Below, piece after piece: positions 17,612-44,796 of a stretch of 64,000 nt of DNA. Below the pieces are notes generated by a model that had not been told where the DNA came from, searched no databases, and was given only the letters and a program-made list of their open reading frames with translations. How positions within the stretch are numbered: the stretch's first letter is position 1; each line of letters opens with the position of its first letter. A program made the translations under genes and the position numbers. The DNA is from a virus, in IMG/VR virus record IMGVR_UViG_3300030329_005612, positions 1-64,000 of that record; one strand, 5' to 3'.

Positions 17612-17660
17612 AAAAAAAGAGAGAGTGCCAAAGTCGAAAGCAAAACTTTGACACCCTCCC
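17612..17660 (-). terminator. Rho-independent terminator
   Basis: Minus-strand GGGTGTCAAAG pairs with CTTTGGCACTC and is followed by CTCTTTTTTT. It ends the rIIB-like transcript. Confidence 0.75.
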
Positions 17661-21823: not shown

Positions 21824-21836
21824 AATAAATAGTCGG

Positions 21837-21911
21837 TAGGGATGAAGGGACTCGAACCCATGACCCTCTGTTTAGAAAACAGATGCTCTATCCAAACTGA
21901 GCTACATCCCC
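21837..21911 (-). tRNA. tRNA-Arg (anticodon TCT)
   Basis: It shows a full cloverleaf: acceptor GGGGATG/CATCCCT, D-arm GCTC..GAGC, anticodon stem TCTGT-TTTCTAA-ACAGA giving UCU, and T-arm TGGGTTCGAGTCCC. CCA is not encoded. Position 1-72 is G-U. tRNA-Arg(UCU) reads AGA/AGG codons, common in AT-rich phage genes. Confidence 0.93.
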
Positions 21912-22028: not shown

Positions 22029-22421
22029 TTAATTATATTCATCCCAAATTTGGTCGTCATCACATTTCCACTCTAAAAACGTCATTATTTGGCCGAAACT
22101 CAATCGAGTTTTACATAGCCAAGGTTCAAACTCCTTTGCCTTGGTGTGGCCTTTTTTCGATGCTTTAAAAGCTGTCCAGTCTATCTCCGCAAAATCATCC
22201 TCTGCTGGCTGCTTCATGCTTCCCACTAACATCACCTTATTTCCAAGGTCATATTCTCTTGTGGAAGTCGTAACCGCAAGAATACCCGCTTTAAATTTCA
22301 CATACACAAAGTTTCCACGGGGAGTCATGCACCGCCATTCATCTTTACTGTAGCGATAGACACAGGCAAGTTTCTTACCTTTGAGTGTCTCAAAGTGTTT
22401 CTTGTCAAGAACTTGTAACAT
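22029..22421 (-). CDS. Hypothetical protein, 130 aa
   Basis: Unrecognised. It has an N-terminal beta region (ACVYRYSKDEWRCMTPRGNF), a Lys-rich middle and a Trp-rich end. It overlaps the end of the sigma factor gene and so is co-transcribed. Confidence 0.7.
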   Translation of the reverse strand: MLQVLDKKHFETLKGKKLACVYRYSKDEWRCMTPRGNFVYVKFKAGILAVTTSTREYDLGNKVMLVGSMKQPAEDDFAEIDWTAFKASKKGHTKAKEFEPWLCKTRLSFGQIMTFLEWKCDDDQIWDEYN

Positions 22422-23412
22422 GATTTTTTGTCTCCTGCTCTATAAACTTTTTTAATTTTTGTAAGGCAATCTTTTCAAGCTGTCTTATCCTTTCTCTAGT
22501 TACCCCAAGTTTCTTTCCAATTTCCTCTAGTGTCTTTTGCTCCTCATTTTTTAATCCAAAACGTGAAGAAATTATTTGGGCTTCTCTAGTTGTTAATTTA
22601 TTTAAATGTTTTTTCAAGCAATTTACCTCATCAGAAGATTGGCAAGCCTCGGCGGGAGAAGCCGCTTTAGAATCTTGAATTAGCGACTCTAGGTCTAACG
22701 AGTGGGAGGTACAATCTTCATGGCTGTAAGAATCACGAATAGCTGGAGCATTGAGAGACTGTGGATTATAATTATTATTTAATACGCTTACTGTAAATGC
22801 CCGTGATACTTTAAATTTTTGCTGAATATGCTCGTCAGAGGGGCGCACACCTGTTTTACTTTTTTGTTCTTCAATGTATTTTAAGACTTTTTTTAAAGTG
22901 TCTTGAACCCCGCACGGCAAGCGAATGAGGCGACTCTGTTTAGCGATAGTCCGCAAAATCTGCTGCTTAATCCACCACGATGAATAAGTGGAAAATTTAA
23001 CTCCCCTTTCTACATCATATTTATCTGCCGCTTTCATTAGCCCAATGACTCCTTCGCTTACCAAGTCTTCATAGTCCACTGAATTATACCACCTTCCATC
23101 AGACCCTGACCCATGAGACCTTCCTCCCCACCGAACATACTGCCCTGCAATCTTCATCACAAGACGCACGTTAGCTTCAACTAACTTATTTTTAGCTGTA
23201 TTTCGGATTTTCTTGCTACGACTTTTTAATTTCTTTCCTAGCTTTATTTCTTCCTCTCTTGTAAGGAGAGGGGGTAAGTTGTCAAACATTGGTCTGCTGG
23301 GGTCGTGGGACAGAGTAATGGTCTTTCTACTTCTGATAGCCCGTGAAATTTGAATATCGTCGCTACCTGTTGGCCGTCCCGCTCGAAAACCTTTCATAAT
23401 ACCACAGTTCAT
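22405..23412 (-). CDS. Sigma70-family RNA polymerase sigma factor, 335 aa
   Basis: Region 1.2 (LLTREEEIKLGKKL, from about residue 50), region 2 (EANVRLVMKIAGQYV, DLVSEGVIGLMKAADKYD, FSTYSSWWIKQQI, about 75-160), region 3 and region 4 (TLEEIGKKLGVTRERIRQLE, about 295-315) are all visible. It resembles host primary or stationary sigma factors rather than T4 gp55. It should redirect host RNA polymerase to phage promoters. An alternative start is the second Met (MKGFRAGRP). Confidence 0.9.
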   Translation of the reverse strand: MNCGIMKGFRAGRPTGSDDIQISRAIRSRKTITLSHDPSRPMFDNLPPLLTREEEIKLGKKLKSRSKKIRNTAKNKLVEANVRLVMKIAGQYVRWGGRSHGSGSDGRWYNSVDYEDLVSEGVIGLMKAADKYDVERGVKFSTYSSWWIKQQILRTIAKQSRLIRLPCGVQDTLKKVLKYIEEQKSKTGVRPSDEHIQQKFKVSRAFTVSVLNNNYNPQSLNAPAIRDSYSHEDCTSHSLDLESLIQDSKAASPAEACQSSDEVNCLKKHLNKLTTREAQIISSRFGLKNEEQKTLEEIGKKLGVTRERIRQLEKIALQKLKKFIEQETKNHVTSS

Positions 23413-23599: not shown

Positions 23600-23773
23600 T
23601 TAAATGTCCCAATCATCTAACGCCATTCCTATAATAGTAGGAGTGTCGTAATCAGGGTTAGCTTTAGCAATATTAATTGCACTAAAAATTAATTCAATTT
23701 CAAGACCCCAGTGCTTTGCTGCTTCAAGACCCTGCTTGATAGCTACTACATCGTATTCTGTGTCAGCTTCCAT
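23600..23773 (-). CDS. Hypothetical acidic protein, 57 aa
   Basis: MEADTEYDVVAIKQGLEAAK and an acidic C-terminus. First gene of the sigma factor operon. Unrecognised. Confidence 0.65.
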   Translation of the reverse strand: MEADTEYDVVAIKQGLEAAKHWGLEIELIFSAINIAKANPDYDTPTIIGMALDDWDI

Positions 23774-23811: not shown

Positions 23812-23842
23812 AAAAAAATGAGGGGAAGTTTCCTTCCCCTCA
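23812..23842 (-). terminator. Strong rho-independent terminator
   Basis: TGAGGGGAAG-GAAA-CTTCCCCTCA, a perfect 10-bp stem with a GAAA tetraloop, then seven T on the minus strand. Confidence 0.9.
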
Positions 23843-24210
23843 CTCACAGTGATAATAGGATTATACTATATGAGAACATAAACGAGGACTTTTTTAGGTG
23901 CTTTACTTACCCACAGTTGGAAACTGCTTGCCCTACGGCGGGGTAAAACCTCGCGCACCTTTTGGGCTGTGTACCGTTGTTGGCCACACTTTGTAACTAG
24001 GCACCCAAAGAAATAGTGGATGAGAGGATTTCTGCGATACCTCTAAAGCCAGCACCCAATACAGTTCATGTTTGCCAGCTTGCCTACCCCACAAGGCTCA
24101 TACGATTGCACTCTGCCGCTGTGGAGCAACACCTTTCCCCTTGAGATACAAGGATATTCAGTCACATCCGTTAAGTTCTCCGTCGAGAACTTAAATTTTA
24201 AAAGAACAAT
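23843..24210 (-). ncRNA. Structured non-coding RNA, about 400 nt including terminator
   Basis: A consensus promoter (TTGACT 24240-24245, 17 bp, TATAAT 24217-24222) and the perfect terminator at 23812-23842 frame about 390 nt with no credible ORF. The 5-prime end has AAGTTCTC-GACG-GAGAACTT, a perfect 8-bp hairpin. Further pairings include GGTGC/GCACC near the 3-prime end. The base composition is richer in G and C than its flanks. A stretch near the middle loosely recalls RNase P RNA CR-I (GGAAAG ... GCTCCACAG), but the other conserved RNase P regions are not seen. Identity unknown. Confidence 0.7.
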
Positions 24211-24216
24211 AGATAG

Positions 24217-24245
24217 ATTATATTCTACCTTAATATATTAGTCAA
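24217..24245 (-). promoter_or_regulatory. Consensus promoter of the 24-kb ncRNA
   Basis: TTGACT (24240-24245), 17 bp, TATAAT (24217-24222). The -35 overlaps the stop of the 24242-24460 gene. No start codon follows. Confidence 0.75.
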
Positions 24246-24460
24246 TCTTTTTCTTGTAAACATTCAATCTTTTTCACAAGAAGATTATAAAATTTTTCTA
24301 CCCTTTCGGGTTGGGCTTGCCGAATCTGACCAAGGGTTTCCGTCCATACCAGATAATTTTCAGCATTTTCATTTACATCGGCCACCTCAACCATTGCTTG
24401 GTCAAAAGGATGGTTGGCCCAAACCTTGCCCTGTTTTGTGTCTACAACCGCTCTGAACAT
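24242..24460 (-). CDS. Hypothetical protein, 72 aa
   Basis: Begins MFRAVVDTKQGKVWANHPFD and ends in a helical segment. Leaderless promoter. Unrecognised. Confidence 0.7.
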   Translation of the reverse strand: MFRAVVDTKQGKVWANHPFDQAMVEVADVNENAENYLVWTETLGQIRQAQPERVEKFYNLLVKKIECLQEKD

Positions 24461-35902: not shown

Positions 35903-36187
35903 ATGCCAGCTACATACAGTACAGTGGGAACCCTACAAGGAGCGTTACACCAGAGCTTTACAACGGGGGATTTTATGCTCGTTACTGCTGGAGATTCGTC
36001 GTACCAAAGTCAAATCACAGGACTCCTAAACACTGGACTCAGCTATGACAGGGCTGAACTTACCAATCACATTGGTAGGGAATATTATAGAAAACTAAAT
36101 CAATTTGGTTTAAGCCCAACCTACAAAGACAGTCTAGACTCTGGCTTTAGACCCTTAACTTTCACTGGCTTATACACGGCTCCCTAA
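35903..36187 (+). CDS. Hypothetical protein, 94 aa, opposite orientation
   Basis: A lone rightward gene inside leftward genes. The composition is Thr/Ser/Gly/Tyr-rich, like phage virion or decoration proteins ([20 protein letters not shown]). Its stop overlaps that of guaC. A convincing promoter was not found, so expression is uncertain. Confidence 0.55.
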
Positions 36188-37344
36188 GTATTCTTCCCAA
36201 ATACTTCGTTCGATTGTTGGGTGACCCGAACAAAAGTGGCACACTTAGGCATATCCTTTAGCCTTCTTGCTCCGATATAGGTACACGCAGAACGTAGTCC
36301 GCCAAGGATACTTTCTACCGTGTTTTTGACTAGCCCTCTGTGTTCCACTCTAACTGTTTTGCCTTCTGACGAACGGTAGCTTGCAACGCCGCCGTAATGT
36401 TTCTTCATGGCTGATTCAGAACTCATACCATAGAAAGTTTTATATTTTTTGCCATCTATTTCTTCTTCTTGACCGGCGCACTCCGTATGTCCAGCGAGCA
36501 TACCACCAAGCATAACAAAATCCGCACCACCACCAAAAGCCTTGGCAACATCTCCAGCACAGGTACAACCGCCATCAGCCATAATATACCCCCCAACGCC
36601 ATGAGCGGCATCGGCACACTCAACCACCGCGCTAAATTGGGGATAACCAACACCAGTCTGAATGCGGGTAGTGCAAACAGAACCACTTCCAATACCAACC
36701 TTAACGATGTCTGCTCCGCTTAATATGATCTCTTCTGTCATTTCGCCAGTAACAACATTACCCGCAATGATAATGAGCGCGGGGTGTTCTTCCCTGACTC
36801 GTTTAATAAAATCACAAAATCTTGCAGTGTATCCATTAGCTGCATCAATACAAACGAATCTATTATGGTAAAAATTCCATTGAATGTCTCTAAGGTAATC
36901 TACATCATCATAATTATTTGGGTCATACTTGATACCAATAGAGGGACAAAGATGGTCGTAAATTCTACTTTGCCAACTCTTTGCTCCACGCTCGTACTTC
37001 CAATTTTTTGAGTTAGCTTCCCTACTTGCTTTCGTTTTGTAAACCCCGTAGCCATCCAGCTTATGTAACCACTTGTCTACATCATTGTGTTTACTAATAC
37101 AGGTAAGCATATGATGTGGAGCAAGAGTTTTTGCCATTTCAAAAGTCCCTACCGTGTCCATATTTGAGGCCACGATTGGGATGCCTTTCCAGCCATAATC
37201 TTTAGGGTTGCTACCTTCACCGCCAGCATTAGGAAAAGTAAACTCACGAACCAAATCGACTTCCTTTCGGGAGGTCAAAGTAGAACGCTTTGGGCGCATA
37301 AGAACATCCTTATAGTCCAGCTTAATGTCTGATTCAATTCTCAT
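36184..37344 (-). CDS. guaC: GMP reductase, 386 aa
   Basis: [20 protein letters not shown] with the catalytic Cys, then [46 protein letters not shown] and the [10 protein letters not shown] end match GMP reductases more closely than IMP dehydrogenases; no CBS domains are present. It converts GMP to IMP with NADPH, so it could shift purines from G toward A, in keeping with the AT-rich genome. Confidence 0.88.
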
Positions 37345-37345
37345 T

Positions 37346-37921
37346 TTATAGTGTTAAAAGTCTTTTGTATCTTAGGGCAACTCTTTGAGCATTCTTTCGG
37401 GCATAAAAAAGGCGCGACATTACAGTTCCCTCTGAAATATGCAACACCTTAGAAATTTCTCTATAATTTAAACCTTCAGACTCATATAGCAATAATATCT
37501 CTCGGTGACATGGGGACAACTTATTAAGGACTGCTTTTACCAACAATATATTTTTTGCTGATTCGTCTTTTTTCTCTATTCTATCGCTGGGCAGTTCATT
37601 CGTAGCAACATTCAGTACGTTTTCATCTACTACTACAAGCGGCGACCGTTGAATACGCCTATATTCATCGTAATATTTATTTCTAGCAATGACATTAACC
37701 CATGTTGCAAATCTGGAATTACCTTTGAAATTTTTCAGGTTCTTCCAGCATTTTATTAGGGCTTGTTGGTAAACTTCCTCGGCCACGGTTTCATTTCCTT
37801 TGGCAAAGTGTAAAATCCATTTTTTTATATACTCTTCATTACAAGAAATTAGTTCACCAAAGGCTTTTTCGTCCCCCTTCTGGGCTAGCTTAATCAGTTG
37901 TTTTTCTTCTGAGATTTTCAC
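37346..37921 (-). CDS. ECF-type sigma factor, 191 aa
   Basis: Region 2 ([39 protein letters not shown]) and region 4 ([40 protein letters not shown]) are clear, with no regions 1 or 3. It starts with GTG overlapping the upstream stop (TAGTG). It is the second sigma factor of the window. No anti-sigma factor is recognised beside it. Confidence 0.88.
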
Positions 37922-38094
37922 TATAGATTATCTATAATATATTTAAGCGTTTTAAACCTCAACATTTGTTCATAACGTATTTCCGAATTATACCTCTGAG
38001 CCGCCCAAGAACATTCACGAATTTCTTTCTCAACCAAATTTATCAATTCGACTTTGTGCTCGCGCAATAATTGGATTATCTCTCGATCTTCCAT
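37921..38094 (-). CDS. Hypothetical protein, 57 aa
   Basis: MEDREIIQLLREHKVELINL and helical charged sequence to the end. The stop overlaps the sigma factor GTG, so it may be a coupled regulator such as a small anti-sigma factor. That is only an inference from position. Confidence 0.55.
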   Translation of the reverse strand: MEDREIIQLLREHKVELINLVEKEIRECSWAAQRYNSEIRYEQMLRFKTLKYIIDNL

Positions 38095-38097
38095 GCT

Positions 38098-38298
38098 TTA
38101 AGTCAACTCCAGCGGGAGGCTAAATTCATTCGCGTACCTATAAATCTTGGACACCTTAACTGTATAAGAATCTTTTTTGTATAGTTTGTATTTTTTATCT
38201 TTAACTTTTTCGTTCCATCGAGAAGTATCTTTCAGGACGCTATCTACATATAAATCAAATTTACTTTTTTTAATTTTAGAATGTGTATTTGAATTCAT
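38098..38298 (-). CDS. Hypothetical basic protein, 66 aa
   Basis: Lys-rich (RWNEKVKDKKYKLYKKDSYT). GGAAGGAAAA lies 5 nt before the ATG; an ATG upstream makes a six-codon leader ending on ATGA. First gene of the ECF sigma operon. Confidence 0.65.
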   Translation of the reverse strand: MNSNTHSKIKKSKFDLYVDSVLKDTSRWNEKVKDKKYKLYKKDSYTVKVSKIYRYANEFSLPLELT

Positions 38299-38331
38299 CT
38301 AGGTTTTCCTTCCATGGTGGGGCGATTCTTT

Positions 38332-38359
38332 ATTATAGAGTTTTTAAAAAATTTGTCAA
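38332..38359 (-). promoter_or_regulatory. Consensus sigma70-type promoter
   Basis: TTGACA (38354-38359), 16 bp and TATAAT (38332-38337), upstream of the ECF sigma operon. Confidence 0.7.
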
Positions 38360-38368
38360 GGAGGCCAC

Positions 38369-38908
38369 TTATCTTAACTCCTCTCTCAAGAGCCTCCACC
38401 TATCACTATCAATCTCCTTTGTACCATCATTAATAGCTTTGATCATATCTACAACCTCTTCTATGGAATCGTAAATATAACGATGAGGTAGCATACCCAT
38501 CATCCAAAGAGGAGTCGCGTGTTTACCTCCTTCCATAGAAATAAAGATTGGTTTTTTCATCCTTACGGCTGTAACAAGTTCTTCCGCACTCCCCCAGCTT
38601 GCTACATCAGGCAACAAATGAGCTATGATAAAATCGCTTCTATCAACGAGGTTTAAATCATAACTACGAACAAGTTTCATTCTGTCGGAAACATCATTGA
38701 AGTAACCGTGCTTTTGGCAGTGGTCTAACGATAGGCGTGTATCTTCATCTTCTTTTACATCCTTAACAAAAGGCTTTTTATAGGGATTGAAAATTCTTAT
38801 GCCAAGCGACTCTAGTTCTCCTTCGACATACTCACGCCAATCTCTACCACTAGCATACTGCATGTGGCCCACTAGGTAGGTTCTAGTTTTAAAAAGCACA
38901 TTTTTCAT
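38369..38908 (-). CDS. Nucleoside 2-deoxyribosyltransferase-like protein, 179 aa
   Basis: TYLVGHMQYASGRDWREYVE, RIFNPYKKPF, DRSDFIIAHLLPDVASWGSA and the EEL motif follow the Ndt family order (YLAGPM, D.SD.iiA, SWGTaEE). It would exchange or hydrolyse deoxynucleoside glycosidic bonds in salvage. It overlaps the upstream gene by ATGA. Confidence 0.75.
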   Translation of the reverse strand: MKNVLFKTRTYLVGHMQYASGRDWREYVEGELESLGIRIFNPYKKPFVKDVKEDEDTRLSLDHCQKHGYFNDVSDRMKLVRSYDLNLVDRSDFIIAHLLPDVASWGSAEELVTAVRMKKPIFISMEGGKHATPLWMMGMLPHRYIYDSIEEVVDMIKAINDGTKEIDSDRWRLLREELR

Positions 38909-39084
38909 AATTTATTTTTTTGTTTGGCGTAAAGAATAATTTTTGATCTTAATTTATTAATTACAAGCTTGGTCCACGCTATATACTTTTGATCAGATTG
39001 AAGCTCGTGCTTAGGAACAGAAGTCATTTCATCTTCTATCTCATTTACTATCTTGATAATTTCATCTAGCCTCAAATAGACCAC
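38905..39084 (-). CDS. Hypothetical protein, 59 aa, GTG start
   Basis: Charged helical protein (LRLDEIIKIVNEIEDEMTSV). GTG 39084 lies 5 nt after a TACATT -10 box, and the stop forms ATGA with the next gene. Confidence 0.55.
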   Translation of the reverse strand: MVYLRLDEIIKIVNEIEDEMTSVPKHELQSDQKYIAWTKLVINKLRSKIILYAKQKNKL

Positions 39085-39089
39085 ATTAA

Positions 39090-39118
39090 AATGTAGCCCA
39101 AGGAAATAAAAAAGTCAA
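39090..39118 (-). promoter_or_regulatory. Near-leaderless sigma70-type promoter
   Basis: TTGACT (39113-39118), 17 bp and TACATT (39090-39095). Confidence 0.55.
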
Positions 39119-39133
39119 GGCTTCTAAAAAGAA

Positions 39134-40258
39134 TTAAGATTGTATTTCCAATAACTCAAGATTATCAGTGAACTTATCGAAGGGAATATCTTTATAAGTA
39201 AGAACGTGGGAAAGCTTCTGTTTATAGCTCCTGCGCTCTATAAACCTTTCATCGAGAACCCCTTCGGCCATTAGTGCGGCTACGGCAGAAATAGGGGAAG
39301 CTGTTGCTCGCTGCATGGCAGTAAAGGGATTAGAATATCCTACAATTATTTCTTTCTCAAAGCTTACGCTTCCAGCGCGTACAACCACCCTAATAATAAC
39401 GATATCCCCATATGGGGATGGGGGACATGTTTTTTCAAAGAATTTTGAAACGACATCATCTTCTAGGTTGGCTTTTTTTATCAGCCCATGCACAATATCC
39501 CTGTGTCCTTTGAATCTGAGCGTTTTATAAAAGCAATTTTTAACATCACGACGCTGCATGTCTCTAAGGGTATGGGACGCTCCACCGCTAGTACAAAATG
39601 CTTCTAGCTCTTCCCCAAGCAGTTTAATATAAATTTTTTCATGACCTGACATTCCTTCTACGGTTTTTATTTCACCATTAACAAGAACTTCACAGTCATC
39701 TTTGTACTCATTAATAAGTCCATCCATTGACCACGTTAAAAGATAATTAAGGGGTGGATTAGCATCAAAATTAGCTGGTAATCCACCTACCATCATCTCA
39801 ACTGATTCAACAGGTCGATGAAGCTCTGAGAACCCTTGTTCAGCTAAAATGTTGACCCACCCCGGCGCAAGGCCGAGGTCGGTCATGACAGGGAAGTTGG
39901 CATTCTCTGTCGCGTATTGATTTATAAACCGAGATACGTCTACACGCCCCCCTAGGTCGCAATAACGAACCCCGGAATCAATACAAAATTGAGCTAATTC
40001 TTTATTTTGATGAAAAGGAAGACTACTGATTACCACTTCAGGTCTTTCAAAGTCTGGTATGATTTCTTTATAATTTCTTTTATTGCAATCGTAAAAAATT
40101 CCATTTTTATCCTCAGGGGTAGAGTTTATAATTTTTCTAAAATCCCCCGCCGCATTCTCATTACTATCAACACCTATGACATAGTACCCTAGCCGCGACA
40201 TACAATGAGTAATGGCCAAACCCATTCTTCCTATTCCAAATACTGCAACTTTTTTCAT
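39134..40258 (-). CDS. Saccharopine-dehydrogenase-family protein, 374 aa
   Basis: An N-terminal Rossmann fold VAVFGIGRMGLAITHCMSRL, then VISSLPFHQNKELAQFC, YCDLGG and MTDLGLAPGWVNILAEQ follow the saccharopine dehydrogenase/carboxy(nor)spermidine dehydrogenase family. Both produce a secondary amine by NADPH-dependent reductive condensation. Its closeness to a SpeD-like gene favours a polyamine role over lysine metabolism, but this is inference. Confidence 0.75.
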   Translation of the reverse strand: MKKVAVFGIGRMGLAITHCMSRLGYYVIGVDSNENAAGDFRKIINSTPEDKNGIFYDCNKRNYKEIIPDFERPEVVISSLPFHQNKELAQFCIDSGVRYCDLGGRVDVSRFINQYATENANFPVMTDLGLAPGWVNILAEQGFSELHRPVESVEMMVGGLPANFDANPPLNYLLTWSMDGLINEYKDDCEVLVNGEIKTVEGMSGHEKIYIKLLGEELEAFCTSGGASHTLRDMQRRDVKNCFYKTLRFKGHRDIVHGLIKKANLEDDVVSKFFEKTCPPSPYGDIVIIRVVVRAGSVSFEKEIIVGYSNPFTAMQRATASPISAVAALMAEGVLDERFIERRSYKQKLSHVLTYKDIPFDKFTDNLELLEIQS

Positions 40259-40259
40259 T

Positions 40260-40397
40260 TTATTTTTTGCACCTCTTACGGGGGCCTCCTTGGCCGCGAT
40301 ATTTTTTCATACCTTTGCTTTTTTTACCACACCCAGCACGACTTTTTTTCTTTACTGGTTTGGTATATGTATATACTTTTTTGTGGGAAGGAGCCAT
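40260..40397 (-). CDS. Lys/Arg-rich 45-aa protein
   Basis: MAPSHKKVYTYTKPVKKKSR, then GCGKKSKGMKKYRGQGGPRK. Highly basic like a nucleic-acid-binding or DNA-compaction peptide. It sits between the SpeD-like and saccharopine-dehydrogenase-like genes, with the next ATG 2 bp after its stop. Confidence 0.55.
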   Translation of the reverse strand: MAPSHKKVYTYTKPVKKKSRAGCGKKSKGMKKYRGQGGPRKRCKK

Positions 40398-40398
40398 A

Positions 40399-40755
40399 TC
40401 AATTTTTCCAAACGCACTGAATTAAATTATCTTTAAAAAATTCTTTGGTATATCTCATTACATCCTCTGGATCAAAACTCTTGCAAGTATAGATATCTAT
40501 TGAAAAAAACTTAGGACTTCTCTTGTCCCAAGAATAAATGTGCATACCCGACTCTTTCCAGTGCATAAAGCAACACCAACCATATTCTTCCGCAAAAGAA
40601 GTTAATGGTTCTGAAACAGGCGTCATATCTAATACTTGAGAAATCTCTTTGCAATATGTTGCTTGGTCTTTTGGGCAAAAAGAATTATGTAGAGTTCCCT
40701 CTACAACCATTCTTTGCCTACAAATTTCAGGCGCTAATTCTTTCCATGTGCTCAT
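40399..40755 (-). CDS. speD: SpeD-like S-adenosylmethionine decarboxylase, 118 aa
   Basis: VVEGTLHNSF near the start and KESGMHIYSWDKRSPKFFSI followed by DIYTCKSFDP are the SpeD pattern (ESxxSIHTxPE, D.YTCG), giving a pyruvoyl enzyme that cleaves at the Ser. The His two residues before the usual Thr is shifted (GMHIYSW), so autoprocessing chemistry may differ. SpeD-like genes are known in cyanophages. The product, decarboxylated SAM, feeds spermidine synthesis. Confidence 0.7.
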   Translation of the reverse strand: MSTWKELAPEICRQRMVVEGTLHNSFCPKDQATYCKEISQVLDMTPVSEPLTSFAEEYGWCCFMHWKESGMHIYSWDKRSPKFFSIDIYTCKSFDPEDVMRYTKEFFKDNLIQCVWKN

Positions 40756-41408
40756 AATCTATTCGCGCAAAGAACGAACCAGTCTCCGTACCCCTGAGCT
40801 AATCCGTCTTTTTTTATAATGTCGGTGGCATAGTGCCACATCACCCTGTCACTAAGAAAAAGCATCTGCCCGTCTTTTAGGGCGTGTGTTAAAATAGCTT
40901 CAGAGTCTTTATTTGCATAAGCTTTTAATTCTCCTCCTTCTATATTGCTTCTCTGTATTCCCACCATAGCAATACAATCATATCCATCTTGATGAATTCC
41001 TTCCGGGGCAACTGGAGCACTTCCACCCAACTCTTCCAAAGTGATTACTCTTAATTGATGAACATCAACCTCAATTCCATCAAATAATTGATTTTCTTTT
41101 TTAAAAGCAAGACACATTTCTTCAAAACCCACACTTTTTATCGTACTCTCTTCAAGGTTTTGAAATTTTCTTACCGCTCCCCCTTGGTGAGAATTATAAT
41201 CAGAGCTTTGGGTAAACTCGCTTTCAGGAAGGTGAGTTATATCCACTTGTTCTCCTGCGCCCCAATGAGTGGTTCTCAACTCAATTTTCGAATATCTTCT
41301 TAATCTGTATTTACCGTCCTTATGATTGGTGTGAGGTAAATTGTCAAACGATGGGCGAAGGGTTTTTATCGCCTCTTCGTTTAGTTGATTAAGCTGCATC
41401 AGTCTCAT
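40752..41408 (-). CDS. 2OG-Fe(II) dioxygenase, IDO/BsmA-like, 218 aa
   Basis: GIHQDGYDCIAMVGIQRSNI, then GGELKAYANKD and LFLSDRVMWHYATDI are the H-x-D...H core of the 2OG-Fe dioxygenase family (PF10014) that includes L-isoleucine 4-hydroxylase. The substrate is likely a free amino acid or small amine. ATGA overlap with the SpeD-like gene. Confidence 0.78.
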   Translation of the reverse strand: MRLMQLNQLNEEAIKTLRPSFDNLPHTNHKDGKYRLRRYSKIELRTTHWGAGEQVDITHLPESEFTQSSDYNSHQGGAVRKFQNLEESTIKSVGFEEMCLAFKKENQLFDGIEVDVHQLRVITLEELGGSAPVAPEGIHQDGYDCIAMVGIQRSNIEGGELKAYANKDSEAILTHALKDGQMLFLSDRVMWHYATDIIKKDGLAQGYGDWFVLCANRL

Positions 41409-41884
41409 ATTTCCTCTATCCTTTTGGCCTTGTCGTCAATTACCATGTCGCAAGCTGGTTTGATATACTTTCCTTTAGAGCCGGTAGATAAATCATGAAA
41501 TTTACAACCCCATGACTCCAGCTGCTTCCAAGTGAATTCATAGTAGCATTTACCCAAAGATATAGATTTCTGAGAGCCCCCTCTGGCGGTCCAATAAACA
41601 ACATACCATCCTTCGTCATATAATTTATTTATTTTATTTATATTTTCTTGATTAGGTTCCGCAAGGTTATACTGCCTTTTACCTGAATAAAAACAAATTG
41701 TTTCATCTATATCAACTAACACAACTTTTCTATCATCAGATGAAAATTTCTTTGATTCATGAAATTCCATATTTCTTGCCAATTCATCGTACATTGCTGC
41801 CTCAGGATGTCTATAAGAACCTAACATATTTCTATCACGACAGTATTTATTTCTCCACCTTAACCATTCTGGGTAGGATGCCAT
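41405..41884 (-). CDS. HAD-superfamily phosphatase, 159 aa
   Basis: VVLVDIDETICF is the DxDxT motif, WTARGG motif II and MVIDDKAKRI the final acidic motif. Length and cap-less layout are like small C0-type HAD phosphatases or polynucleotide-kinase-type phosphatase domains. It overlaps the 2OG oxygenase gene, suggesting a shared pathway. Confidence 0.75.
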   Translation of the reverse strand: MASYPEWLRWRNKYCRDRNMLGSYRHPEAAMYDELARNMEFHESKKFSSDDRKVVLVDIDETICFYSGKRQYNLAEPNQENINKINKLYDEGWYVVYWTARGGSQKSISLGKCYYEFTWKQLESWGCKFHDLSTGSKGKYIKPACDMVIDDKAKRIEEI

Positions 41885-42042
41885 TTAGTTACCTCGTTAA
41901 AATTATGTCTAAGATTAACTTGAAGCCACTTTTCCGACTCCGCACTGTAATGGTTGCCGTGGGTTATATGCATATTTTGCCTTTCTACGCTACGATACAT
42001 AGCCATTAATATATCACATTTTACTTTTTGTTTATCTTTCAT
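41860..42042 (-). CDS. Hypothetical protein, 60 aa
   Basis: MKDKQKVKCDILMAMYRSVE then His- and Asn-rich sequence. Overlaps the HAD gene by 25 nt and the ClpP gene by ATGA. Unrecognised. Confidence 0.6.
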   Translation of the reverse strand: MKDKQKVKCDILMAMYRSVERQNMHITHGNHYSAESEKWLQVNLRHNFNEVTKWHPTQNG

Positions 42043-42815
42043 CTTTTGCGCGTGTTTTTTCTTTTCGTTTTTGATTTTGATTTAGAGGGTCTTGCTCGCT
42101 TGACTTCTGGCATCATCGCTCGAATTTCGTCTACCAGTTGAAGTTCAATTGCTTCATCAGCACTAATCCACCAGTCCTTTCTATCCCAGTTTCTTTTTAT
42201 CTTTTGCTTTGTGAGCTTTGATCGGTTTGTAAAAATTTCTAGAATACGTTCTTCAATTCTTTTTACAAATTCCACTTCATCTTCTATTTCAAATGTTTTA
42301 CCATGTGCTCCAAACGCTGCTCGGTGAATCATAACCCAAGCTTGGTGGCCAACCCACCTTATATCACCCGCTTGCAATAAAATTCCCGCCATTGAAGCAG
42401 CCATGCCTAATGTGCCCGTTGTTATTTTGTGCCCTTTGTTTCGCAGGGATTGAATAAAATCAAACAATTCAAAACCAGAAATAATTTCACCACCGGGAGA
42501 AGAAAAAATAATTTCAATATCACATTTAGGATCGAGTCTAGACCATTCGGTGAGCTTTTTCATGCAGCTACCCACAGAAGAACTGCTTACCGAACCAGAG
42601 AATCTATAAAGATGGTTTTCTTCATCTTTTGCTTGATCTTTTGCCCTGCTTTTAAAAGCTTTTTCGGTTTCTATTTCAGATTTAGAGGCTTCTGATTCAA
42701 TTTTTCTTGCTTCAGCCTCTGCTTTTCTTGCTTCAGCCTCTGCTTTTTTAACTTCGGCATACTTAACAGCAAGATCAGCTGCTAACTCTTCTGAGGTTTT
42801 ATTTTTTTCGCTCAT
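42039..42815 (-). CDS. clpP: ClpP-like serine protease with N-terminal coiled coil, 258 aa
   Basis: The first 65 residues are a coiled coil with the repeat KAEAEAR. The protease domain follows: IEIIFSSPGGEIISGFELFD (oxyanion loop), GTLGMAASMAGILL with nucleophile Ser, and WVMIHRAAFG with His. A Lys/Arg-rich tail ends the protein. In phages ClpP-like proteins often mature the prohead, but no head genes flank it here; an accessory regulatory protease is equally possible. Confidence 0.85.
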   Translation of the reverse strand: MSEKNKTSEELAADLAVKYAEVKKAEAEARKAEAEARKIESEASKSEIETEKAFKSRAKDQAKDEENHLYRFSGSVSSSSVGSCMKKLTEWSRLDPKCDIEIIFSSPGGEIISGFELFDFIQSLRNKGHKITTGTLGMAASMAGILLQAGDIRWVGHQAWVMIHRAAFGAHGKTFEIEDEVEFVKRIEERILEIFTNRSKLTKQKIKRNWDRKDWWISADEAIELQLVDEIRAMMPEVKRARPSKSKSKTKRKNTRKR

Positions 42816-42820
42816 GGTTT

Positions 42821-43018
42821 TTACCTGTCCTTAAATCTCCTTACTATCTTTACAAAAAAATTAGGTTTAGGTTCTGTGGAGTAAGGATAAAGTTTTTCTT
42901 TTTTTCTACGTTTAATTTCTTGTTTCTGATGCTTTACATGTTTTTCCCACTCCTCTCTTTCCTTCGAGCTAAGATGGGGAGGGATAGGGCTTCTTTTATA
43001 ATAGTGCTCGTTAGTCAT
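42821..43018 (-). CDS. Hypothetical basic protein, 65 aa
   Basis: ATG 43018 (MTNEHYYKRSPIPP) overlaps the upstream stop (ATGACTAA) and is preferred. A Lys/Arg/Glu-rich helix fills the middle. Unrecognised. Confidence 0.6.
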   Translation of the reverse strand: MTNEHYYKRSPIPPHLSSKEREEWEKHVKHQKQEIKRRKKEKLYPYSTEPKPNFFVKIVRRFKDR

Positions 43019-43247
43019 CTTTCTTGTCTTGCTTTCCTTTGTCTTTTGCATCTTCTTGGTTGCCTATTGCTCCCCCTACTGCTGCCCCTACTCCCGCTCC
43101 AATTAACGTTCCTTTCGTGTCTTTGCCTATAGCCTGACCAGCCAACGCTCCAATAGCTCCTCCAATGAGGGCTCCAGTGCCGGTTTTAGTAACGCAACCA
43201 GTAGTTAGTGTTAGTGCCAGTATTAATATTAATATTAGTTTTTTCAT
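43011..43247 (-). CDS. Glycine-zipper lipoprotein, 78 aa
   Basis: The signal MKKLILILILALTLTTGCVT has lipobox TTGC. The mature part repeats GALIGGAIGALAGQAIG and TLIGAGVGAAVGGAIG, the glycine-zipper pattern of outer membrane SlyB/OsmB-like lipoproteins. An envelope-acting phage lipoprotein, perhaps for superinfection exclusion. Confidence 0.8.
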   Translation of the reverse strand: MKKLILILILALTLTTGCVTKTGTGALIGGAIGALAGQAIGKDTKGTLIGAGVGAAVGGAIGNQEDAKDKGKQDKKDD

Positions 43248-43251
43248 AAAA

Positions 43252-44796
43252 TTATTTCATTCCTTGGGGAAAAGTTAGTTTATCGGCATGATTCACCGTC
43301 CAACTTACTTCATGTGTGACAGCCCTGAAAGTTCTAGCTGCACTGGGAAAACCATTTCCAGACTTCTTGACTCCTCCAAAGGCAAGATGTGATTCGGCTG
43401 CAATAGAGCCACCATTCCAGTAAATCATACCCGCTTCACACTCGTCTCTTAATACTCGTGCTTTTCTGAAATCATTAGTAAGAACTCCTACCGCTAATCC
43501 ATACTCTGTATCATTATAAATCCGAATAGCATCTTCCAAAGTATCAAAAGGAATAATGGCTACGTGAGGACCAAAAACTTCATTGCGTAAATAAGGGGCG
43601 TCACCCCCGCGCCATTCTACTTTATAAATCATGGGTGTAGAAAAGAAGGCTCCATTATCAGTAGTGTAGGTGGGGTGTAGCACTACGTCTGCTTGGGGGT
43701 CGTCTATAACCATTTGGTTGTACTGGCTAACTTTATTGAAGGCTTGTTCATTAATGAGAGGTCCATAATACATTTCTTTGTTCACAACCCACTCTTCCCA
43801 AGCTACCACTTCAGGCATTCCAGTAGACTTTGTTATTTGTATAAATGGATTGCCAGTTTTTATATCTTTACTTTTTTCAACAAACCGTGATACGAATTCA
43901 TCATATACCGTACGCTGAACTATTAACCTTCCAGAAGAAACACACCGTTGACCAGAAAGTTTATATGCGCTAGCCACAGCCGCTTCAAGTGCGAGGTCCA
44001 TTTCTACGTCATCAAAAATGATACAAGCTGACTTACTGCCCATCTCACACGATGTTGTTTTATGCCAGCTGTCTGCTGCAACCCTTCGTATGTGTTGCCC
44101 TACTTCTGCACTTCCTGTAAAACAAATATGATCTACATCATCGACGGCTAAAAGGTTTCCTGTATCTCCTTCTCCATGAACCAAATTAATAACACCAGCT
44201 GGAATACCAGCTTCTTCATAAATTTCTATAGCTAACTGAGATGACATGGGTGCATCTTCGGAGGGTTTGAGTATTACAGTGTTCCCTTCTACAAGGGCTG
44301 GCGCAGCACACCAGTACGCTCCAATAGCCAAAGGAAAATTAAACGGAGATATAATTGCTATTACACCTTTTGGCTTGCGTAGCATGTAGGCATCTTTATC
44401 TTCTATCTCAGACGCTACTGCTTCGCCGTGAGAATATCTACCTGAACCAAACGCAAATTGAGCCATATGTAAAGCTTCATTTACCTCTGCTATGGACTCG
44501 TTATAGTTTTTACCTGTCTCTAGTGAAATAACTTCTGCTAGCTCTTCTTTTCTGTTTTCAATTATTTGAGCTACCCTGTTCATGTAATCAGAGCGCACAA
44601 ATCTGCTAACTTTTTTCCACTTATGGAAAGCTTTCCTCGCAGATTTAACTGCTAAATCCACCTCGTTAGGTCCACTTAATGGGAATGCACCTAAAGGTTT
44701 TCCTGTGGATGGATTAATATTATGGTAGCTGCTTTCATCCTTGGTGTGAGGCAGGCTCCACTCTCCATTAATATAATTTTTTCCTTCCATGTTCAT
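43252..44796 (-). CDS. Aldehyde dehydrogenase, 514 aa
   Basis: A full-length ALDH: SPFNFPLAIG (substrate side), catalytic Glu251 in CEMGSK and Cys285 in SGQRCVSSGR, then EVFGPHVAIIPF. The sequence is close in feel to aminoadipate-semialdehyde dehydrogenase (Amadh/AASADH). Together with the saccharopine-dehydrogenase-like gene this suggests a lysine/pipecolate or polyamine-derived aldehyde, but the substrate is not defined. Full ALDH genes are rare in phages. Confidence 0.88.
   Translation of the reverse strand: MNMEGKNYINGEWSLPHTKDESSYHNINPSTGKPLGAFPLSGPNEVDLAVKSARKAFHKWKKVSRFVRSDYMNRVAQIIENRKEELAEVISLETGKNYNESIAEVNEALHMAQFAFGSGRYSHGEAVASEIEDKDAYMLRKPKGVIAIISPFNFPLAIGAYWCAAPALVEGNTVILKPSEDAPMSSQLAIEIYEEAGIPAGVINLVHGEGDTGNLLAVDDVDHICFTGSAEVGQHIRRVAADSWHKTTSCEMGSKSACIIFDDVEMDLALEAAVASAYKLSGQRCVSSGRLIVQRTVYDEFVSRFVEKSKDIKTGNPFIQITKSTGMPEVVAWEEWVVNKEMYYGPLINEQAFNKVSQYNQMVIDDPQADVVLHPTYTTDNGAFFSTPMIYKVEWRGGDAPYLRNEVFGPHVAIIPFDTLEDAIRIYNDTEYGLAVGVLTNDFRKARVLRDECEAGMIYWNGGSIAAESHLAFGGVKKSGNGFPSAARTFRAVTHEVSWTVNHADKLTFPQGMK

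Follow-up and report, generated by a model that had tools for sequence, protein, structure and literature searches.

A divergent manA RNA domain in a putative stand-alone, terminated transcript of a little-known phage group

The locus and its transcription signals

The window analyzed here comprises 64,000 nucleotides (positions 1 to 64,000) of the 67.6-kb virus record IMGVR_UViG_3300030329_005612. Within it, a region without an evident gene is preceded by a 72-aa ORF (24242-24460, minus strand) that has no Pfam match and is followed on the same strand by two 57-aa ORFs (the first at 23600-23773, also without a Pfam match) and then by the gene for a sigma-70 family factor (22405-23412, minus strand; Pfam Sigma70_r2/r4, phrog_351). 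A tRNA-Arg gene is located at 21835-21911. These are the neighbors given in the initial annotation, which placed an RNA between a hypothetical gene and the sigma factor operon, close to tRNA-Arg.

The promoter-like site TTGACT-17-TATAAT (24217-24245, minus strand) matches the consensus at 11 of 12 positions with a spacing of 17, as previously described, and its -35 box overlaps the stop codon of the 72-aa ORF; Markov shuffles contain on average ~0.13 promoters of this quality per 6-kb strand, so that the site is rarer than chance. At the other end of the region, an intrinsic terminator (23816-23845, minus strand) consists of a stem with 6 GC pairs, a GAAA loop and a U-run (-22 kcal/mol). A GAAA-capped terminator had been reported at 23812-23842 with a 10-bp stem; the loop is as described, but the stem has 13 bp and extends from 23845 to 23816. 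It is one of two terminators with stems of at least 10 bp in the whole window, compared to none in 100 shuffled 6-kb stretches. Immediately 3′ of it lies another promoter-like site (9 of 12 matches). Another long terminator hairpin, with a 15-bp stem and an 8-nt loop, is found at 17621-17658 on the minus strand, just 3′ of a RIIB-like gene.

The minus-strand unit, with a predicted start near 24210, extends over ~395 nt up to the terminator, close to the ~390 nt without a protein gene that had been noted, and contains no plausible protein gene: the longest ATG-initiated ORF on the transcript has 11 aa, and the ORFs of 30-53 aa in the RNA region start with GTG or TTG and show no evident ribosome-binding site. 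The 11-codon AUG ORF (MFSYSIILLSL) ends just before the terminator stem, a position that would suit a translational attenuator, but it is very short, lacks both a Shine-Dalgarno sequence and a relative, and could easily occur by chance, so that such a mechanism appears highly improbable. The G+C content of the RNA region (0.43-0.51) exceeds that of the nearest flanks (0.32-0.40), as had been pointed out for the surroundings in general, but the neighboring genes also reach 0.45. Taken together, the promoter, the terminator, the predicted fold (z -3.8 for the whole RNA) and the absence of an ORF support the earlier view of a discrete, structured, noncoding transcription unit.

A divergent manA domain in the 5′ half

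The RNA had been annotated as unidentified, with an Rfam search named beforehand as a possible refutation. This search assigns the 5′ half (24013-24191, minus strand) to a known class, manA (RF01745), with a score of 64.7 bits, above the gathering score of 55.2 (E 3.4e-14 over the whole window), and a match that covers the entire model (positions 1-192); the earlier label is thereby refuted. The same class has been described as cis-regulatory (Weinberg et al., 2010; PMC2864571), a classification shared by the Rfam entry, and its structure is well established, with 48 significantly covarying pairs in the curated alignment of Rfam 14 (PMC7779021). No ligand or binding partner is reported in the manA papers found.

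When the manA segment is folded alone (z -3.8), the minimum-energy structure consists of P1, the closing helix, P2, P3, P4 and P5. P1 is a 10-bp hairpin with a GACG loop (24171-24194); the closing helix is formed by the 5′ strand GGAUG (24165-24169) and the 3′ strand CAUCC (24018-24022); and P5 is the hairpin AGAGG/CCUCU (24023-24044), all on the minus strand and, for P1 and P5, also supported by the Rfam alignment. The P5 loop includes GCAGAAAU, the GCAG of which could form a loop-loop pairing with CUGU in the loop of P4, one of the pairs being G-U. Among the cyanophage copies of manA, CUGU in P4 faces ACAG in P5 and AUGU faces ACAU in nearly all of the loop pairs listed; in two copies, UAUCAUU replaces ACAU, with CAU retained. 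Compared to the cyanophage sequences, both strands have changed in a compensatory manner in the closing helix (GGGAG/CUCCC to GGAUG/CAUCC) and in P5 (GUUGG/CCAAC to AGAGG/CCUCU, read in the register of the segment fold, from which the 24-sequence alignment is off by one at P5). The core elements GUGACUGAAUA, AAGGUG, ACUGUA and CAGNAAUCC, which are invariant or nearly so in that alignment (window sequence included), are all kept. Thus, the window copy shares with RF01745 the closing helix, P4, P5 and the loop-loop pairing, and differs in its far lower score than the cyanophage copies and in having one hairpin fewer within the P3 arm: the second one (consensus AAccgacuaACCAgucgg) is deleted in the Rfam alignment. 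This hairpin is a peripheral feature, and the copy exceeds the cut-off for the full model even in its absence.

GOLLD and ROOL are stand-alone structured phage RNAs often found near tRNA genes, and both are much larger than the window RNA. As the initial annotation had maintained, the RNA belongs to neither: GOLLD, ROOL, tmRNA and RNase P yielded no Rfam match at the gathering score in the window and none at E<5 in the region.

Unlike manA elements that directly precede a gene, the window copy is followed by ~167 nt and the terminator, and the next ORF lies 240 nt 3′ of the manA end, behind the 13-bp stem. This 3′ part (23846-24012, minus strand; 167 nt) has no relatives among Rfam families, in phage DNA or at a second site in its own genome. 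With a z of -1.0, it is no stabler than shuffled sequences, so that the manA half accounts for the folding stability of the whole RNA, and the original description, "full of hairpins," applies to that half and the terminator.

manA in cyanophages

A pattern scan of viral contigs yielded at least ~100 manA copies for comparison; 26 of the 29 records tested from this set pass the Rfam cut-off, at 152-197 bits. The annotated phages that match the cyanophage-type manA sequence are exclusively Prochlorococcus and Synechococcus phages and marine single-cell viruses. Of 89 listed copies, 79 have a -10 box with 5 or 6 matches at a distance of 16-39 nt 5′ of the closing helix, compared to 19 of 89 for a control stretch; the next same-strand ORF of at least 50 aa starts within 60 nt in 54 of 92 listed copies (counted by hand), and a terminator precedes the next ORF in 13 of the 92. 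By these counts, the usual form of manA is a promoter-proximal leader, mostly located directly before a gene; several copies are directly 5′ of tRNA genes. By visual inspection, the ORFs directly behind manA in several of these contigs (L009, L015, L021, L041 and others) include some that resemble T4 gp32 (single-strand DNA binding) and one that resembles a transaldolase, and the targets appear to be diverse, extending beyond mannose genes.

Two further features were observed among these and related loci. In 21 cyanophage-type loci (L014:524, L016:3494, L103:8395 and 18 others), a conserved hairpin, AGACCUAAGAUGCAACU...AGUCGGGCAGAUGGUCU, is located directly 3′ of manA, 173-185 nt past the start of the core, and occurs nowhere else among the loci examined; it has no Rfam family in the loci scanned and may represent a terminator or accessory domain of manA that has yet to be described. 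Separately, a manA-like class of ~250 nt that falls below the Rfam cut-off (best E 1.5e-6, in L136) is found in viral contigs L110, L121-L125 and L136-L141. These RNAs are closed by a ~16-bp stem, CCAAGGGAUAUCAGAG/CUCUGGUAUCCCUUGG; several have tRNA genes and Pistol or hammerhead ribozymes nearby, and two copies share one 70-kb contig.

Matches to the core pattern in bacterial genomes (L127, L130, L131, L132 and L134) look like chance matches in coding sequence. In addition to a manA-like core pattern, an element in a Dehalococcoidia chromosome (L135:4740-4980) has a T-arm-like hairpin, GCGGGUUCGAUUCCCGC, and a promoter-like site; it was rejected as manA, given that the Rfam model finds none there, that the genome has its own tmRNA and that a comparison with 196 other genomes of the class yielded no convincing relative. 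The resemblance of the 5-bp P5, abutting the closing helix, to a T-arm on an acceptor stem might evoke a tRNA- or tmRNA-like origin of manA, but this is a likeness of shape that no test supports.

A second manA copy with the same layout

The scan for other core variants revealed manA in two uncharacterized phage contigs, L154 and L156, that carry practically one sequence and accordingly count as one case of independent support. This copy scores 62.5 bits with the Rfam model, in the range of the window copy, and the two share ACAUGAACUGUA and GCAGAAAUC, which are absent from the cyanophage copies listed. The layout is also the same, with manA followed by ~120 nt, an 18-bp hairpin (-29.5 kcal/mol) and U9, and no ORF between. 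The promoter is weaker (TTGACC-15-TATAAG, identified by eye), and both signals were missed by the scans: the promoter scan did not report this site, and the terminator, which has a long loop, is visible in the fold. The 3′ parts of the two RNAs cannot be aligned and show no sequence similarity beyond that of shuffled sequences, so that only the layout is common to them; no DNA relatives of either whole RNA were found in the phage collection. A signature search for further window-type copies recovered only L154 and L156, five other matches not being manA.

The second copy also differs from that in the window in its orientation opposite to the neighboring genes. In L156, manA is flanked by opposite-strand ORFs of 195 aa (lipoprotein-like) and 210 aa. 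Of the 33 largest ORFs that do not overlap one another on this 46-kb contig, 31, both neighbors included, are encoded on the strand opposite to manA. Because no gene follows on its own strand and nearly all genes are opposite, a leader function for this manA is excluded as far as gene prediction allows.

By one protein, PhoH, the window and L156 phages appear to be more similar to one another than to known phages: the two PhoH sequences are 57% identical over 114 aa, compared to only 30-37% between L156 PhoH and the phage records listed. A nucleotidyltransferase-like protein common to both shows 29% identity. The window proteins RIIA (at most ~38% identity) and sigma factor (35-38%) are far from known phage proteins, and the search with these two proteins found no relatives in viral contigs, whereas the nearest matches of ThyX are proteins of cyanophages and marine viruses (53-57%). 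Judging from these comparisons, the lineage of the window phage, ThyX aside, is far from known phages. The window also encodes, at 36184-44796, IMP-dehydrogenase-like (phrog_9582, "dehydrogenase") and aldehyde-dehydrogenase-like metabolic proteins and a ClpP-like protease, names assigned partly by eye.

Stand-alone RNA or leader

The arrangement found in the window can be read in several ways. Under the reading we favor, with a probability of roughly 0.6, the unit is a stand-alone, terminated manA RNA of ~395 nt that would act in trans. It would be transcribed as one abundant RNA, the 5′ end of which would be formed by an independently folding manA domain, and the dedicated terminator would close the molecule before any gene. 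Instead of switching a downstream gene, this RNA would most likely bind a small molecule or a protein, of either host or phage origin. In favor of this reading are the manA match and fold with its compensatory changes, the strong terminator ahead of any ORF and the recurrence of the layout in the L156 phage, where the adjacent genes point the other way.

A decayed or displaced leader, that is, a manA cassette that has lost its gene and is simply terminated, with no present function, would fit the 3′ half, which has neither significant structure nor relatives, and the divergence of the copy (64.7 bits against 152-197 for the cyanophage copies). However, the second copy has the same layout, and the conserved core bases, the compensatory pair changes and the intact promoter and terminator indicate selection, so that loss of function appears improbable.

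A cis-acting attenuator is the more serious rival because the downstream genes of the window run in the same direction as the RNA, which makes a readthrough leader possible there, and because the last strand of manA can pair with the 5′ arm of the terminator. In this scheme, manA would be the sensor in the 5′ leader of the operon encoding the two 57-aa proteins and the sigma factor, and the terminator would be the expression platform: when manA is unfolded, its last strand, CCUCUCAUCCAC, would pair with the terminator arm GUGAGUGAGGGG, and the polymerase would read on. By eye, the two strands match as complements at all but one of 12 positions (-17.8 kcal/mol), both Rfam and the 2010 study class manA as cis-regulatory, and the minority of cyanophage-type copies with a terminator before the next ORF provides a parallel. 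However, the pairing energy is matched by 57 of 2000 and 88 of 2000 shuffles (3-4%), the pairing strands are ~165 nt apart, and the promoter-like site directly past the terminator also argues against the scheme. In L156, the corresponding pairing is not convincing (48 of 1000 shuffles match it), and there is no gene behind on the strand of the RNA. On balance, attenuation seems unlikely, and a trans-acting, stand-alone RNA is the preferred interpretation.

Implications for the manA family

The manA class itself is already known; the new part is its putative stand-alone, terminated arrangement in a little-known phage group. Because the same domain leads many different cyanophage genes, manA in the cyanophages and in the window looks like a portable 5′ module, the action of which would be independent of one particular gene. 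We tentatively suggest, at somewhat less than even odds, that manA is more than, or something other than, a riboswitch tied to one gene: it would be a portable domain able to serve at the 5′ end of any transcript, trans-acting stand-alone RNAs included, and this phage group would use it in a dedicated noncoding RNA of ~390 nt.

Since 2010, manA has been listed as cis-regulatory and as a possible riboswitch, without a ligand or mechanism. The terminated copies, of which that in L156 runs against nearly every gene on its contig, imply that the domain can persist without a gene to regulate, and stand-alone copies would shift attention beyond a metabolite alone, to a bound protein or an effect in trans. 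They also extend the manA family beyond the T4-like cyanophages, its main described setting, to a phage group far removed from them.
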